Positions 6,238-16,311 of a DNA stretch of 42,699 bases are shown in pieces. The position numbers were made by a program, and so were the translations under genes. Positions within the stretch are counted from its first letter, which is position 1. Every line of letters begins with the position of its first letter. Source of the stretch: a bacterium (GTDB lineage Bacteria; Patescibacteriota; Patescibacteriia; 2-01-FULL-39-33). The notes under the pieces are model-generated. The model saw only the letters and a list, made by a program, of their open reading frames with translations. It was not told the DNA's origin and did not search any database. The stretch covers positions 1-42,699 of the forward strand of contig JAKQDP010000070.1 of NCBI GenBank assembly GCA_029558735.1, written 5' to 3'.

Positions 6238-7671
6238 TTATTTTTTTAATAATATTTTCAGCTGGCTAATGTCGGCCTTGGTAATCGCTTGAGTTAAAAC
6301 TATCATTATCAAATAAACAAGGGCGCCAATCGGTATGACAAAAATAAAATGCAGCCGTTGTTTTAATAGTCCGACGACCAATGCCATCACTAGGCCGCTT
6401 GTTGACACTTTCAATAAAACCAGCCATAGATATTTTTTATTGTAGTCGATAATCTGACAGGCGACTGATATTCCCAAGAAGAAGAGCAAGCCATAGCTCA
6501 GTAAAGTGGCTAGCGCCGAACCGACATAGCTCCAGAGAGGAATTAGAATTAAATTGGCAATGACGCTAAAAATAGCCACGATAGCCAGATTGATGGTATT
6601 TCTGGTTTGTTTATTGCAGGCGTTGAGCAAGGCCCCAACAGGAAAAGACAAAAAGATAAACACTAGGGCGGCCATCATTAATTGAAGCGCTGGTCCGGCC
6701 GGGGCGTATTCGGCTCCGAAAATCGGACCGATTAATTTATCGGCCATTAGAATAGCGCCGATCGAAATCGGCAGAGACAAAAGCAACAAATAGTGGAGTG
6801 ATTTGACAAAGGTTTTGCTTAATAGTTCTTTAGCGTTGGCGTAATAATGGCAAAAGGCCGGATAAATGCTGGCCGAAAAAGCCACCCCAATAAATTGCAG
6901 GGCAAAAGTGATTTTATAAGCGACGCTGTATAAGCCGACTGCTCGGTCATCGGCCAATTTGGACAAGAGAATTGTGTCGATAGTTGAATAAATCCGAATA
7001 AAAAAAGCGGCAATGCCAAATGGCAAGGCCAGGACCAGCATGGTTTTGAAAAATTGAAAATTAAAATTAATTCTAAAGAGTAGGCGATATTTAAATTTCA
7101 GGGCGGAATAAGAAATTAACAAATTAAGACCGCTACCAATTAAATAGACGCTGATTAGCGCCAACATTCCCCAGTTGAGCCATAAAACAATAAAGCCGCA
7201 AATCATCACCGCTCCCTGATTAAGGATTACCCCCAGACTTTCGAATTTAAGATTTTGATAACCCCTCAAAATAGAGAAAAAACTCAAAGCGAAAGAATCA
7301 ATCAACATGACTATGGCAGCAATATACACTAATTGTTTGGTAAGCGGCGGATAATTCAGCCAGTTGATTATTAAGATAATGGCTCCGTAGATAACCAATG
7401 AAAGAAGCAATTTCCAGCCGAGAGTATTGGCCAGATATTTTTCCGCTGCTTTTTTGTCTCGAGCGCTTTCCCTGATTAACACTTGGCTTAATCCAAAATC
7501 CATTAACATAGCAAAAATGGTGGTGAAGCTCAGGGCAAAAGATAATTTGCCGGTATTTTCCACCCCAATAATCCTGGCAAAAAAGATAAAATAAATAAAA
7601 GACAAGGCCTTTTGGGTGGCCAAGGCAATACTGAATAGGGTGGTATTTTTGGCTAATTTTCCATTATCCAT
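6238..7671 (-). CDS. Polysaccharide flippase (Wzx / MATE-like)
   Basis: Multi-TM; N-terminal NTTLFSIALATQKALSFIYFIFFARIIGVENTGKLSFALSF. Confidence 0.9.
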   Translation of the reverse strand: MDNGKLAKNTTLFSIALATQKALSFIYFIFFARIIGVENTGKLSFALSFTTIFAMLMDFGLSQVLIRESARDKKAAEKYLANTLGWKLLLSLVIYGAIILIINWLNYPPLTKQLVYIAAIVMLIDSFALSFFSILRGYQNLKFESLGVILNQGAVMICGFIVLWLNWGMLALISVYLIGSGLNLLISYSALKFKYRLLFRINFNFQFFKTMLVLALPFGIAAFFIRIYSTIDTILLSKLADDRAVGLYSVAYKITFALQFIGVAFSASIYPAFCHYYANAKELLSKTFVKSLHYLLLLSLPISIGAILMADKLIGPIFGAEYAPAGPALQLMMAALVFIFLSFPVGALLNACNKQTRNTINLAIVAIFSVIANLILIPLWSYVGSALATLLSYGLLFFLGISVACQIIDYNKKYLWLVLLKVSTSGLVMALVVGLLKQRLHFIFVIPIGALVYLIMIVLTQAITKADISQLKILLKK

Positions 7672-12879: not shown

Positions 12880-13794
12880 ATGATATTTTCTCCCCGGAAA
12901 TTTAATATCCGATACCAAGCTATTTTTGATACTCCCGAACAAAATATTGTAAGAGTTTGGCTGGCTCAACCATCAAATTCTACCACGCAAAAAATAGAAT
13001 CTTTTTCAATTTTACCTAAACCACGAAATCATTACAAAGATAGCCAAGGAAATAAAATTTTGTATTTTGAGTTTAAAAATCAAAAAAATATTGTTATCCA
13101 AATGGATATTAAAGCAACTTTATGGAAAACTAAAATTAACCTAACCAGAAAAAAAATTTTTTCGCCTCAAGCTAAAATAAAGTTATTTCAGCAATACACT
13201 AAAAGCGAAAAATTTTTAGAGCAAACTTCGGCTATAAAAAACTTAACCAAAAAATTAATCAATAAAAATGAACTCCCTTTAAATAGTATTAAATTTATTT
13301 TTGAATTTATTATAAAAAATTTTAAATATTGTTATCCAATCAAGCAAAGAGGCATAAAGCACTTAAATTTAAAACGACTTAAGGGTGACTGCGCAGAATA
13401 TTCAAGTTTATTTGTGACAATGTGCAGGATTTTAAAAATCCCCGCTAGGAATAATACTGGTTTTGTTATTTTCCCGAAACAAAAAATAATAGTTGAACAT
13501 GCTTGGGCAAGTGTTTATTTAAGACCAACTAGTTGGTTGGATTTTGATACACAGTATGCATCCCTTGAAAAAAATCCCAAAAAATATTTTGCCCAGAGAA
13601 GTGATTACAGAATAGTTTTTATAAATGGTTTTAATATTCCATTAAAACCGACCATTCCAAAAGGTTTTCAAATAAATTATTGGAACAAGCTCGGACTACC
13701 TTTGACTAATAATTTTGTTCAAACACTCCAGCCAATAGTGTTCGCTTCTAAAAAAGATATTAAATTTAGAGACAAAATTGAATTAACATCATAA
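12880..13794 (+). CDS. Transglutaminase-like cysteine protease superfamily protein
   Basis: Catalytic-triad-like LKGDCAEYSSLFVTMCRILKIPARNNTGFVI ... VEHAWASVYL ... WLDFDTQYA; very AT-rich coding. Confidence 0.85.
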   Translation: MIFSPRKFNIRYQAIFDTPEQNIVRVWLAQPSNSTTQKIESFSILPKPRNHYKDSQGNKILYFEFKNQKNIVIQMDIKATLWKTKINLTRKKIFSPQAKIKLFQQYTKSEKFLEQTSAIKNLTKKLINKNELPLNSIKFIFEFIIKNFKYCYPIKQRGIKHLNLKRLKGDCAEYSSLFVTMCRILKIPARNNTGFVIFPKQKIIVEHAWASVYLRPTSWLDFDTQYASLEKNPKKYFAQRSDYRIVFINGFNIPLKPTIPKGFQINYWNKLGLPLTNNFVQTLQPIVFASKKDIKFRDKIELTS

Positions 13795-13797
13795 AAA

Positions 13798-13828
13798 TCC
13801 CCGTAAAAGCCGTTGGGCTTATACGGGG
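13798..13828 (-). terminator. Terminator of the RiPP-like operon
   Basis: Minus strand CCCCGTATAAGCC-caac-GGCTTTTACGGGG followed by ATTTTTAT. Confidence 0.65.
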
Positions 13829-13846
13829 TGGAGATCAACTGGGACA

Positions 13847-13966
13847 TTAGCCCTTTTTTATTCTTGCCGAGGACGAGGGACATCCCTTATGAATGGCTGC
13901 GACAACGAGTGATTTTGTATCACCCTTCATGTTGGCACGCGGTGGAGCGTAACTCCCTTTAGCCAT
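13847..13966 (-). CDS. Putative RiPP precursor peptide, 39 aa (not in ORF track)
   Basis: AAGGAGGTGAAAATT-ATG; MAKGSYAPPRANMKGDTKSLVVAAIHKGCPSSSARIKKG*; start overlaps the maturase stop by 8 nt; followed by a hairpin terminator. Confidence 0.75.
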   Translation of the reverse strand: MAKGSYAPPRANMKGDTKSLVVAAIHKGCPSSSARIKKG

Positions 13967-15317
13967 AATTTTCACCTCCTTTTAATGAATGGTTTATGGC
14001 TGATATACGGCAGTTTTCCGGTGATAATTCTAAAAGATCACCACCCTCTAATAGAGCCAATCCCGGACAACGAGCGCAAGAAGTGAGCAATTGGCACTTT
14101 GAACACTTTGTGAGTTTACTAATTGTTAAATCACGTAGATACTGAATTTGTGGGGAATTGTGCCAAATTTTTGAAAAGCTATTTTTCTTTAAATCCCCAA
14201 TTTCATAAAGAAGCTGGTTACAAGGCAAAACCTTACCCGAAGGTGTAATAGCGCAACTATTAAACCCACTATAACAAGGAGCGGCGTCAGCCAAATCAGA
14301 AAATTTAAAGTAAAATTGATGATCCTGAAAGGGCTTGCGTCCCGCATATAGAGCAGATAACTCTTTATCTTCTAAAAATAACTTAAGTTGTTCATCGTTT
14401 AGCCGAAGCTGAAAAGTGTCCCGCTTTCCATTATTACGGGCGGTGATAACATGACTTGGCGACAGCAAACAACCCAATGATCTGGCGAGATTCTTTACTA
14501 AATGGCGTTCGTGAAAATTTATTCCCATAAGTGGAAAAGCGATTTCCACTTTTATCCCCGCCTTAGTTAAAAAATTTATGCCATTCAATGTGTTTTTAAA
14601 TGAGCCAGTCAAATTAGTAATTAAATCGTGTGTTTCGGGCGTTGCTCCGTAAAGACTTATCTGAACGCGTCTAACGGGATGCAATGCAAGCTTATCTGCT
14701 ATACTCTTTGTAATAAGAGTTCCATTACTAAGAATATCGATCACAAAATGTAATTTGCTGGCATATTCCACAATTTCCATTGCATCATTGCGGGTAAAAA
14801 ATTCCCCGCCTGTAAAAGAAACAAATAAGCAGCCTGCAGCGGCGATTTCATTAAGAATATGCCTGATTTCACTGAGTGAAAGAGATAGTTGATTGTGATC
14901 AATATAACAATGTATGCATTTTTCATTACAAACATAGGTTGTTTCAAATGTCACGGCGAAAGGAATAAGATTTTCAATAGCTTTCATTTCAATCGTCAAT
15001 AAAATATTTTCTCCATCTTTATCATTTTGATTCTCTATTTTTAACTCTTTATTATTATAATCAATAAAACCACAAGAATTAGCCTCCTGAAGAAAAGTGA
15101 TGATATCTCTTTTTGCCCTTTTATTGCTAAGGGAGTATTTATTAGTCAAAAATTCAATTAAGTCATTAAAATCCATTCCTGCAGCTATCTTTTCCCATAA
15201 GAGAGAAGCTGTTTCGTTCCAAATTACAATCTGTTGATTTTCGCAATTAAATGCTACTATTTCGGAATCGATATATCTCCACCCAACTCTTGGATTTATT
15301 AAACATTCTCTAATCAT
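13959..15317 (-). CDS. Radical SAM/SPASM peptide maturase with N-terminal PqqD-like (RRE) domain
   Basis: N-terminal PqqD-like region VAFNCENQQIVIWNETASLLWEKI...FLTNKYSLSNKRAKRDIITFLQEANSCGFI; radical SAM CNEKCIHC with SFTGGEFF; SPASM cysteines CYSGFNSCAITPSGKVLPCNQ...CSKCQLLTSCARCPG...C. Confidence 0.93.
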   Translation of the reverse strand: MIRECLINPRVGWRYIDSEIVAFNCENQQIVIWNETASLLWEKIAAGMDFNDLIEFLTNKYSLSNKRAKRDIITFLQEANSCGFIDYNNKELKIENQNDKDGENILLTIEMKAIENLIPFAVTFETTYVCNEKCIHCYIDHNQLSLSLSEIRHILNEIAAAGCLFVSFTGGEFFTRNDAMEIVEYASKLHFVIDILSNGTLITKSIADKLALHPVRRVQISLYGATPETHDLITNLTGSFKNTLNGINFLTKAGIKVEIAFPLMGINFHERHLVKNLARSLGCLLSPSHVITARNNGKRDTFQLRLNDEQLKLFLEDKELSALYAGRKPFQDHQFYFKFSDLADAAPCYSGFNSCAITPSGKVLPCNQLLYEIGDLKKNSFSKIWHNSPQIQYLRDLTISKLTKCSKCQLLTSCARCPGLALLEGGDLLELSPENCRISAINHSLKGGENYG

Positions 15318-15383
15318 TGCTAAAATCTCCTTAAATTTTCAATGAACACTTTAGTGACTATCGCATTACAATACCTAATAAAT

Positions 15384-15412
15384 ACTTTATTTCTCCATCC
15401 TAATTTTGTCAA
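15384..15412 (-). promoter_or_regulatory. Promoter of the maturase-peptide operon (TTGACA-N17-TAAAGT)
   Basis: Minus strand TTGACA 15412-15407, 17-nt spacer, TAAAGT 15389-15384; AAGGAG upstream of the maturase ATG. Confidence 0.7.
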
Positions 15413-15476: not shown

Positions 15477-16076
15477 CAGTAGCAAAATAATGCCCACACC
15501 TGTTTGCATTATTTTTCGTTCACTTCGTCCTTCGCGTTCCCGCTCGGTCCCCATTCTCTCCCCACTGGTTTGAATCCCTATTATTCCAAATATTACAAAG
15601 TAAATAAGAGAAGTGGATAAAATCCACTTCTCTTATTTTCTCGGGGACAGGAATTTACGCATCGCCTCGCCGCCAAATAGCGGCTCGCCTCTTTGTCCTC
15701 GGTAGAGCTGAATACTCCTTTAGTCGCATTCAGCTACGCTCGATTTATTCGCAAAATTTTCCAATTTTTCTCATATCTCGCTTCTGCCGGTTCGTATCCT
15801 TTCTTTATCCAAGAAAAATACAAAGAAAGACCGTCAAAACGGCCTCTCTTTGTATTTTCTCGGGGACAGGGATTTACGGCGTAAACCGCCCGCAGAAAAC
15901 GGGGCGGTTTACTCTGTCCTAGGTGGCCGCTAATCCTGCGCCAGCTCGGATTAGCTAAAAGTTTCGCTTTGGCGCTTGCCTTCCGGCTTCGCTTCTCGCT
16001 CAACTTGCCACCCGTTCGAATCCCTATTATTCCAAAGCAAATAAAAGAAGTGGATTTTGTCCACTTCTTTTACTTG
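15477..16076. repeat. Three tandem ~219-bp hairpin-rich units carrying tRNA-Gln 3'-end copies
   Basis: TCGGGGACAGG recurs at 15641, 15860 and 16078 (the last within tRNA-Gln); GAATCCCTATTATTCCA-like at 15572, 15794 (diverged) and 16018; hairpins at equivalent positions. Confidence 0.85.
16042..16072 (-). terminator. Hairpin immediately 3' of tRNA-Gln
   Basis: AAAAGAAGTGGA-caaaa-TCCACTTCTTTT. Confidence 0.65.
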
Positions 16077-16147
16077 CTCGGGGACAGGGATTCGAACCCC
16101 GATAGCCAGGACCAAAACCTGGAGTCCTACCATTAGACGATCCCCGA
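16077..16147 (-). tRNA. tRNA-Gln (anticodon TTG)
   Basis: TCGGGGATCGTCTAATGGTAGGACTCCAGGTTTTGGTCCTGGCTATCGGGGTTCGAATCCCTGTCCCCGAG folds as a cloverleaf; no encoded CCA. Confidence 0.95.
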
Positions 16148-16188: not shown

Positions 16189-16311
16189 TTAGTTGGCTTT
16201 TTTACTTCTTTTGTATTTGCCGCTTTGGCGAGCGCTTCTTTTCACTAAAGTTATCTCGCGCCATTTTAATTTGGGCACCTTAGCTCGCGGGTCTCTTTTT
16301 TTCTTAGCCAT
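16189..16311 (-). CDS. Small highly basic protein, 40 aa
   Basis: MAKKKRDPRAKVPKLKWREITLVKRSARQSGKYKRSKKAN*; below track cutoff; ribosomal-protein-like composition. Confidence 0.6.
   Translation of the reverse strand: MAKKKRDPRAKVPKLKWREITLVKRSARQSGKYKRSKKAN

Follow-up and report, generated by a model that had tools for sequence, protein, structure and literature searches.

Analysis of a 42,699-nucleotide stretch of Patescibacteria DNA (the window, meaning that whole stretch) revealed what is very probably a compact RRE-dependent radical-SAM RiPP cassette of a new RiPP family, as judged by sequence comparison. The cassette pairs a 452-aa maturase with a 39-aa peptide that is strongly predicted to be its substrate. 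A scan of GTDB genomes yielded one close relative of the maturase, 77-78% identical, at locus L030 (Patescibacteria group bacterium UBA6257). A patescibacterial origin of the window agrees with this relative, with the size of its genome (0.99 Mb at 99% completeness) and with the comparable sizes of the genomes grouped with it. The initial annotation had proposed a radical-SAM RiPP maturase with an adjacent precursor in a CPR-type genome, and this proposal is supported by the finding that the small ORF is conserved and that its frame changes mainly at synonymous positions. The features of the locus are as follows.

15384..15412, minus strand: promoter TTGACA-N17-TAAAGT, read in the sequence (TTGACA 15412-15407, TAAAGT 15389-15384)
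15334..15362, minus strand: 5'UTR box GATAGTCA...TGTTCATTGAAAATT, from the window/L030 alignment
13959..15317, minus strand: RRE(PqqD)-radical SAM-SPASM maturase, 452 aa, from Pfam, NCBIfam and the 77% identical ortholog in L030
13974..13983, minus strand: Shine-Dalgarno (SD) sequence AAAGGAGGTG of the precursor, just upstream of the ATG at 13966, read in the sequence and the same in relatives
13847..13966, minus strand: putative 39-aa precursor MAKGSYAPPRANMKGDTKSLVVAAIHKGCPSSSARIKKG, ATG 13966, TAA at 13847, from the ORF, its L030 ortholog and the codon-position test
13793..13828, minus strand: rho-independent terminator between convergent genes, a GC-rich hairpin (13828-13799) followed by ATTTTT
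12880..13794, plus strand: transglutaminase-like protein (PF01841), cysteine-protease fold, triad C171/H207/D221, from Pfam; convergent neighbour in L030
16076..16147, minus strand: tRNA-Gln(TTG), boundary of the integration hotspot, at the same position in sister genomes
15583..16092, no strand assigned: three tandem copies of the tRNA-Gln 3' end, att-like, at 15641, 15860 and 16078

The promoter, maturase, perfect SD sequence, 39-aa ORF and hairpin described in the initial annotation were all found on the minus strand, including the 8-nt overlap between the maturase stop and the 39-aa ORF (13959-13966). This overlap and the strong SD sequence, both seen in the DNA, suggest that translation of the peptide would be coupled to that of the maturase. 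The peptide consists of a leader with YAPP (YxxP), a core with the single Cys29 and a C-terminal KKG, and the terminator hairpin folds at -21.7 kcal/mol (z -3.5). Upstream of the L030 maturase, TTGACA stands at the corresponding place. The 5'UTR box at 15334-15362 is more conserved between the window and L030 than its surroundings and is possibly a regulatory element; an Rfam scan of the window returned tRNAs only.

The domains read by eye in the 452-aa protein, namely a PqqD-like N-terminal domain, a CxxxCxxC motif and SPASM cysteines, were borne out by Pfam and by the cysteine positions. PqqD (PF05402) matched residues 19-85 (2.7e-9; 37.6 bits against a gathering threshold of 23.4), and Radical_SAM (PF04055; residues 125-267, 6e-21, 75.7 bits) and SPASM (PF13186; residues 348-409, 7.5e-11, 42.6 bits) were likewise above gathering. 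The radical SAM motif (C130/C134/C137) is invariant in all four aligned maturases, as are C348, C366, C405, C408, C414 and C417 of the SPASM cysteines (C348-x12-G-x4-C366, C405-x2-C408-x5-C414-x2-C417 and C436); C436 is absent in the more distant relative L031, and the last SPASM pair is CX2C where CX3C is the usual form. A profile search of the PDB placed RiPP maturases among the nearest matches, with SkfB the best (1.4e-28) and PqqE (2.3e-18), SuiB and CteB also among them; YydG/EpeE matched as well. No equivalog cut-off was reached in the NCBIfam search, in which the matches were to other SPASM families, and the models for known sactipeptide maturases all fell short (94.5 bits against a cut-off of 850 for AlbA, 64.2 against 300 for SkfB and 76.3 against 625 for StsB). 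An AlphaFold model built from two rows showed the RRE strand-helix order bbb-aaa but is too weak, with a pLDDT of 43, to assess binding, so that the Foldseek ranking (SkfB and SuiB first) was not counted as evidence.

The maturase is present in one copy in its own genome, and no close maturase was found in nine genomes of the same family or in about 380 genomes sampled from the class. Between the window and L030 the maturases differ with a dN of 0.14 and a dS of 1.07. Directly after the L030 maturase, the SD sequence AAAGGAGGTGA precedes the peptide MKKKKQYVSPKIKAKGNTKHLIVGAIHKSCPSSSARVKKG (6369-6491), which is identical to the window peptide at 23 of 39 positions (dN 0.37, synonymous sites saturated). 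Over the 25-codon core the differences are distributed 5/2/17 across codon positions 1/2/3 (chi-square p = 0.0004), indicating that the frame is under purifying selection as protein. Thus, both a small ORF at the same position beside homologous maturases and conservation of the 39-aa frame, which the initial annotation had put forward as tests of its proposal, were observed, the former in L030 and also after more distant maturases. The core segment guessed there, GDTKSLVVAAIHKGCPSSS, falls inside a conserved block, KGxTKxLxVxAIHKxCPSSSARxKKG, that extends to the peptide C-terminus, and the peptide is indeed one with a single Cys (C29) and without a PqqA or SCIFF pattern, having 39 aa, no Glu-Tyr and not six Cys. 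Cys is no more conserved between the two peptides than His, Lys, Thr and Ser. The core motif was not found in any genome beyond these two, suggesting that the exact product is narrowly distributed; a peptide search in 144 relatives gave weak chance matches only, and NCBIfam precursor models matched none of the peptides at E values up to 10.

The pairing of maturase and peptide extends beyond L030. In the phylum sample, the aligned maturases of L031 and L032 are 40% and 36% identical to that of the window, and are followed by the peptides MKPTKKQFEPPKISTHSKEVRRLNS (leader KKQFEPPKI) and MGKQKDDKPAKKRYQSPAVTSKQGERTPAYNCPSTSVKYCGVPYSPKRG (leader KKRYQSPAV, core NCPSTS), respectively; the PqqD of L031 is a discrete 100-aa protein. 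The L031 peptide frame ends after 25 aa, before any Cys, with a Cys-containing continuation in another frame, possibly reflecting a frameshift or assembly error, or a modification that is not Cys-based. Short Cys-containing ORFs with a strong SD likewise come after still more distant maturases (L011, L012, L015, L018, L019, L033, L034 and L035). By a strict count in the fetched loci (strong SD plus an ORF of 20-70 aa at the stop, with other genes of the same loci as controls), such ORFs followed 13 of 33 radical-SAM genes and 2 of 134 other genes (Fisher p = 6e-9). All 13 contain Cys except that of L031, and these divergent precursors have little else in common. Precursor type follows maturase clade, with three changes, the minimum, on the maturase tree (0 of 200 shuffles were as low), on which support for the window group is moderate (80/88). 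Because most PqqD-domain matches in the phylum (11/380) did not adjoin radical SAM enzymes in the stretch seen, PqqD alone overcounts RiPPs.

The 39-aa ORF is short and lysine-rich, and adjacency by itself is no proof of a substrate, so that it could encode a translational leader, or a small protein with no link to the maturase, whose place beside the maturase is incidental. We consider this very unlikely, since position, SD, frame and core are kept across 23% maturase divergence and like ORFs are rare after genes other than maturases.

Several other arrangements were observed among the loci. CNP-type cassettes (L012/L045 and L015/L048) have Cys-Asn-Pro-rich precursors, in L015 with a second short Cys ORF following, and in this group (L045, L048) a predicted HExxH protein of 242-267 aa lies at the same convergent place as the transglutaminase-like gene. 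In MKxFS-type loci a ~150-aa P-loop ATPase-like protein is encoded downstream of the maturase-precursor pair (L019 2728-3195, plus strand; L035 772-1224, minus strand). Downstream of the L031 cassette are a protein of 147 aa that has a C..H..D pattern and no Pfam family (L036 6499-6942, plus strand), for which profile comparison with the transglutaminase-like protein was negative, and a convergent HExxH-like protein (L036 7134-7718, minus strand). A second candidate RiPP family was found at L013 (1062-1175, minus), L016 (1018-1182, plus), L020 (946-1158, minus), L021 (309-428, minus) and L022 (1032-1130, plus), where coordinates are those of stop-to-stop frames and minus-strand positions are counted along the reverse strand. 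Its peptides end in [V/F][R/K]ILN[K/R]GN....[A/T]LTKESQG[T/V]MYYR[G/A][Q/E] and adjoin a radical-SAM/SPASM protein of ~475 aa and a class I methyltransferase-like gene in all five loci.

The leaders of the window, L030, L031 and L032 all contain the motif K-[K/G]-x-[Y/F]-x-x-P, and the YxxP in the window leader had not figured in the initial annotation. In lasso peptides, YxxP is well known as a sequence that RREs recognise (PMC6784204; PMC13381572), and RREs that bind W/Y/LxxP/L/I are also present in PQQ and StsC sactipeptide systems (PMC12710340). The natural interpretation is hence that the fused PqqD domain would capture the leader. The conserved motif and domain give good grounds to expect that the RRE of the maturase binds the YxxP leader. 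We propose that the maturase would bind the KxxYxxP leader through its N-terminal PqqD domain and would then modify the core GDTKSLVVAAIHKGCPSSSARIKKG with its CxxxCxxC [4Fe-4S]/SAM centre and SPASM auxiliary clusters.

The most probable modification, which we put at about an even chance, is a thioether of the sacti- or ranthi-type in which the Cys29 sulfur would be joined to a backbone or side-chain carbon. The closest solved relative, the thioether maturase SkfB, and AlbA (B. subtilis SKF and subtilosin) also combine a fused PqqD-like RRE with radical SAM and SPASM/Twitch domains and act on a Cys-containing substrate, but the window maturase is far below their cut-offs, its precursor is unrelated and downstream, and no exporter or immunity gene was seen. 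The actinobacterial StsB/StsC sactipeptide system likewise has a radical SAM/SPASM enzyme with an RRE, that of StsC being among the W/Y/LxxP-recognising RREs (PMC12710340), whereas in the window the RRE is fused (although discrete in the relative L031), the precursor is different and the score is 76 against 625 bits. Ranthipeptides (CteB/SCIFF and freyrasin type) share the RRE-rSAM-SPASM organization and Cys donors, and CteB is among the PDB matches, but SCIFF-type precursors have six Cys in ~45 aa in contrast to one Cys in 39 aa, without a SCIFF pattern, in the window. It is possible that the single conserved Cys29 forms a sactipeptide S-to-C-alpha thioether.

The same RiPP architecture could also operate without using Cys, through a C-C crosslink, epimerisation or a side-chain change at His26/Lys that leaves Cys29 free. 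This reading, which we hold to be somewhat improbable, fits the Cys-less in-frame peptide of L031, the equal conservation of His, Lys, Thr and Ser, and the presence of other rSAM/SPASM RiPP enzymes (SuiB and YydG/EpeE) among the PDB matches, but almost every one of the divergent precursors behind these maturases has a Cys, while sharing little else, and the closest solved relative, SkfB, forms a thioether. A further alternative is that the peptide is the scaffold on which a small redox cofactor of the PQQ or mycofactocin type would be built, rather than a finished peptide product, given that PqqD/PqqE and mycofactocin maturases are relatives (NCBIfam and PDB searches) and that no PF00664 exporter was found. 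This is very improbable, because the peptide lacks the PqqA-like Glu-Tyr and the MftA-like C-terminal Val-Tyr, its conserved block spans the whole C-terminal half including CPSSSAR, and neither in the window nor in L030 are PqqB/C/F-like or mycofactocin genes present beside the pair.

A convergent gene that the initial annotation overlooked encodes the transglutaminase-like protein, in which C171/H207/D221 are conserved and no N-terminal signal peptide is evident. In L030 this gene (6516-7457) likewise lies convergent to the maturase-peptide pair at the corresponding place, although the upstream flanks are unlike, with FtsX/tRNA-Gln in the window and a SocA/Panacea HTH protein in L030. The B2 peptidase of lasso systems is a transglutaminase-like leader peptidase, similar in kind to this PF01841 neighbour. 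By this analogy, the transglutaminase-like protein may cut off the precursor leader, a candidate role that we advance tentatively, at a little under even chances. Lasso systems (RRE B1, transglutaminase-like peptidase B2 and cyclase C) resemble the locus in their YxxP leader and in the adjoining transglutaminase-fold protein, but the window has a radical SAM enzyme, its neighbour belongs to PF01841 and not to the B2 family, and no penultimate-Thr leader end has been demonstrated; no asparagine-synthetase-like lasso cyclase was found among the Pfam-scanned window neighbours or at the L030 locus.

Alternatively, and with a probability that we judge evenly balanced, the gene is a passenger of the same mobile segment with no part in maturation. 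It lies on the separate strand, is absent from the stretch seen in L032, L019 and others, and is rare elsewhere (1 of 94 relatives); the one further copy, in G091, is 47% identical and adjoins genes for thymidylate synthase and kinase. No maturase gene flanks this copy, and the search of G091 gave no maturase match. Arguing against a passenger are that two genomes with unlike upstream flanks have both kept it beside the pair, that no signal peptide is evident, and that its transglutaminase/cysteine-protease fold is similar in kind to the lasso B2 peptidase.

The cassette adjoins tRNA-Gln and three tandem copies of the tRNA 3' end with hairpins (15583-16147), a setting not remarked on in the initial annotation. 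FtsE-FtsX and tRNA-Gln are kept in three genomes of the same family (G002, G007 and G009; L074-L076), where other cargo follows, and in two of the three the D-Ala-D-Ala carboxypeptidase of the window comes after that cargo. Retention of FtsE-FtsX/tRNA-Gln with differing cargo indicates an integration hotspot, and from this context the cassette appears to be horizontally acquired, mobile cargo of the tRNA-Gln hotspot. In L030 the cassette sits between 85-nt inverted repeats. No link to viruses or plasmids emerged, as no close relative was present among viral contigs, and the best matches in phages and plasmids were only about 25-30% identical. Between ftsX and tRNA-Gln, a 40-aa very basic protein, MAKKKRDPRAKVPKLKWREITLVKRSARQSGKYKRSKKAN, is encoded at 16192-16311 on the minus strand; 6 of 57 genomes encode it, every one a member of the same family.

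The earlier statement that no dedicated exporter lies nearby holds more strongly than it was made, since no PF00664 ABC exporter was found anywhere in the 99%-complete genome by a search that was positive in 13 of 14 control genomes. Classical peptide-ABC export is therefore unlikely, and the product would be released in another way or act inside the cell; perhaps it has a role in competition, or in contact with host or neighbour cells.

RiPP loci have been reported in the reduced genomes of the CPR, namely graspetides (PMC8939145), LAP/YcaO and lanthipeptide loci (PMC7298704) and YcaO (PMC12153355), but their enzyme classes are unrelated to radical SAM/RRE maturases. We found no PqqD-radical-SAM RiPP from Patescibacteria in the open (non-subscription) papers searched. 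Maturase-peptide pairs recur across the phylum, which suggests that Patescibacteria make peptide natural products of a kind for which we found no report in these organisms. On a broader and more speculative view, which we regard as unlikely to hold in full, Patescibacteria may have a hitherto undescribed RiPP class of their own. Its RRE-radical-SAM cassettes would be mobile and would combine YxxP leaders of the lasso type and varied Cys cores with cytosolic peptidases of the transglutaminase or HExxH type. The products would function without a classical exporter and would serve in contact, competition or superinfection exclusion between these ultra-small epibionts and their hosts.

Being small and defined, the precursor, the maturase and the possible peptidase lend themselves to co-expression in E. 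coli, which makes CPR specialised metabolites directly testable, and the sister cassettes (CNP-type, MKxFS-type and the methyltransferase-linked ILN-GN...LTKESQG-MYYR family) offer further loci for mining. Patescibacteria are regarded as metabolically stripped epibionts, and a recurrent cassette at a tRNA hotspot under purifying selection suggests that making a modified peptide is worth its cost even to a cell with a 1-Mb genome.
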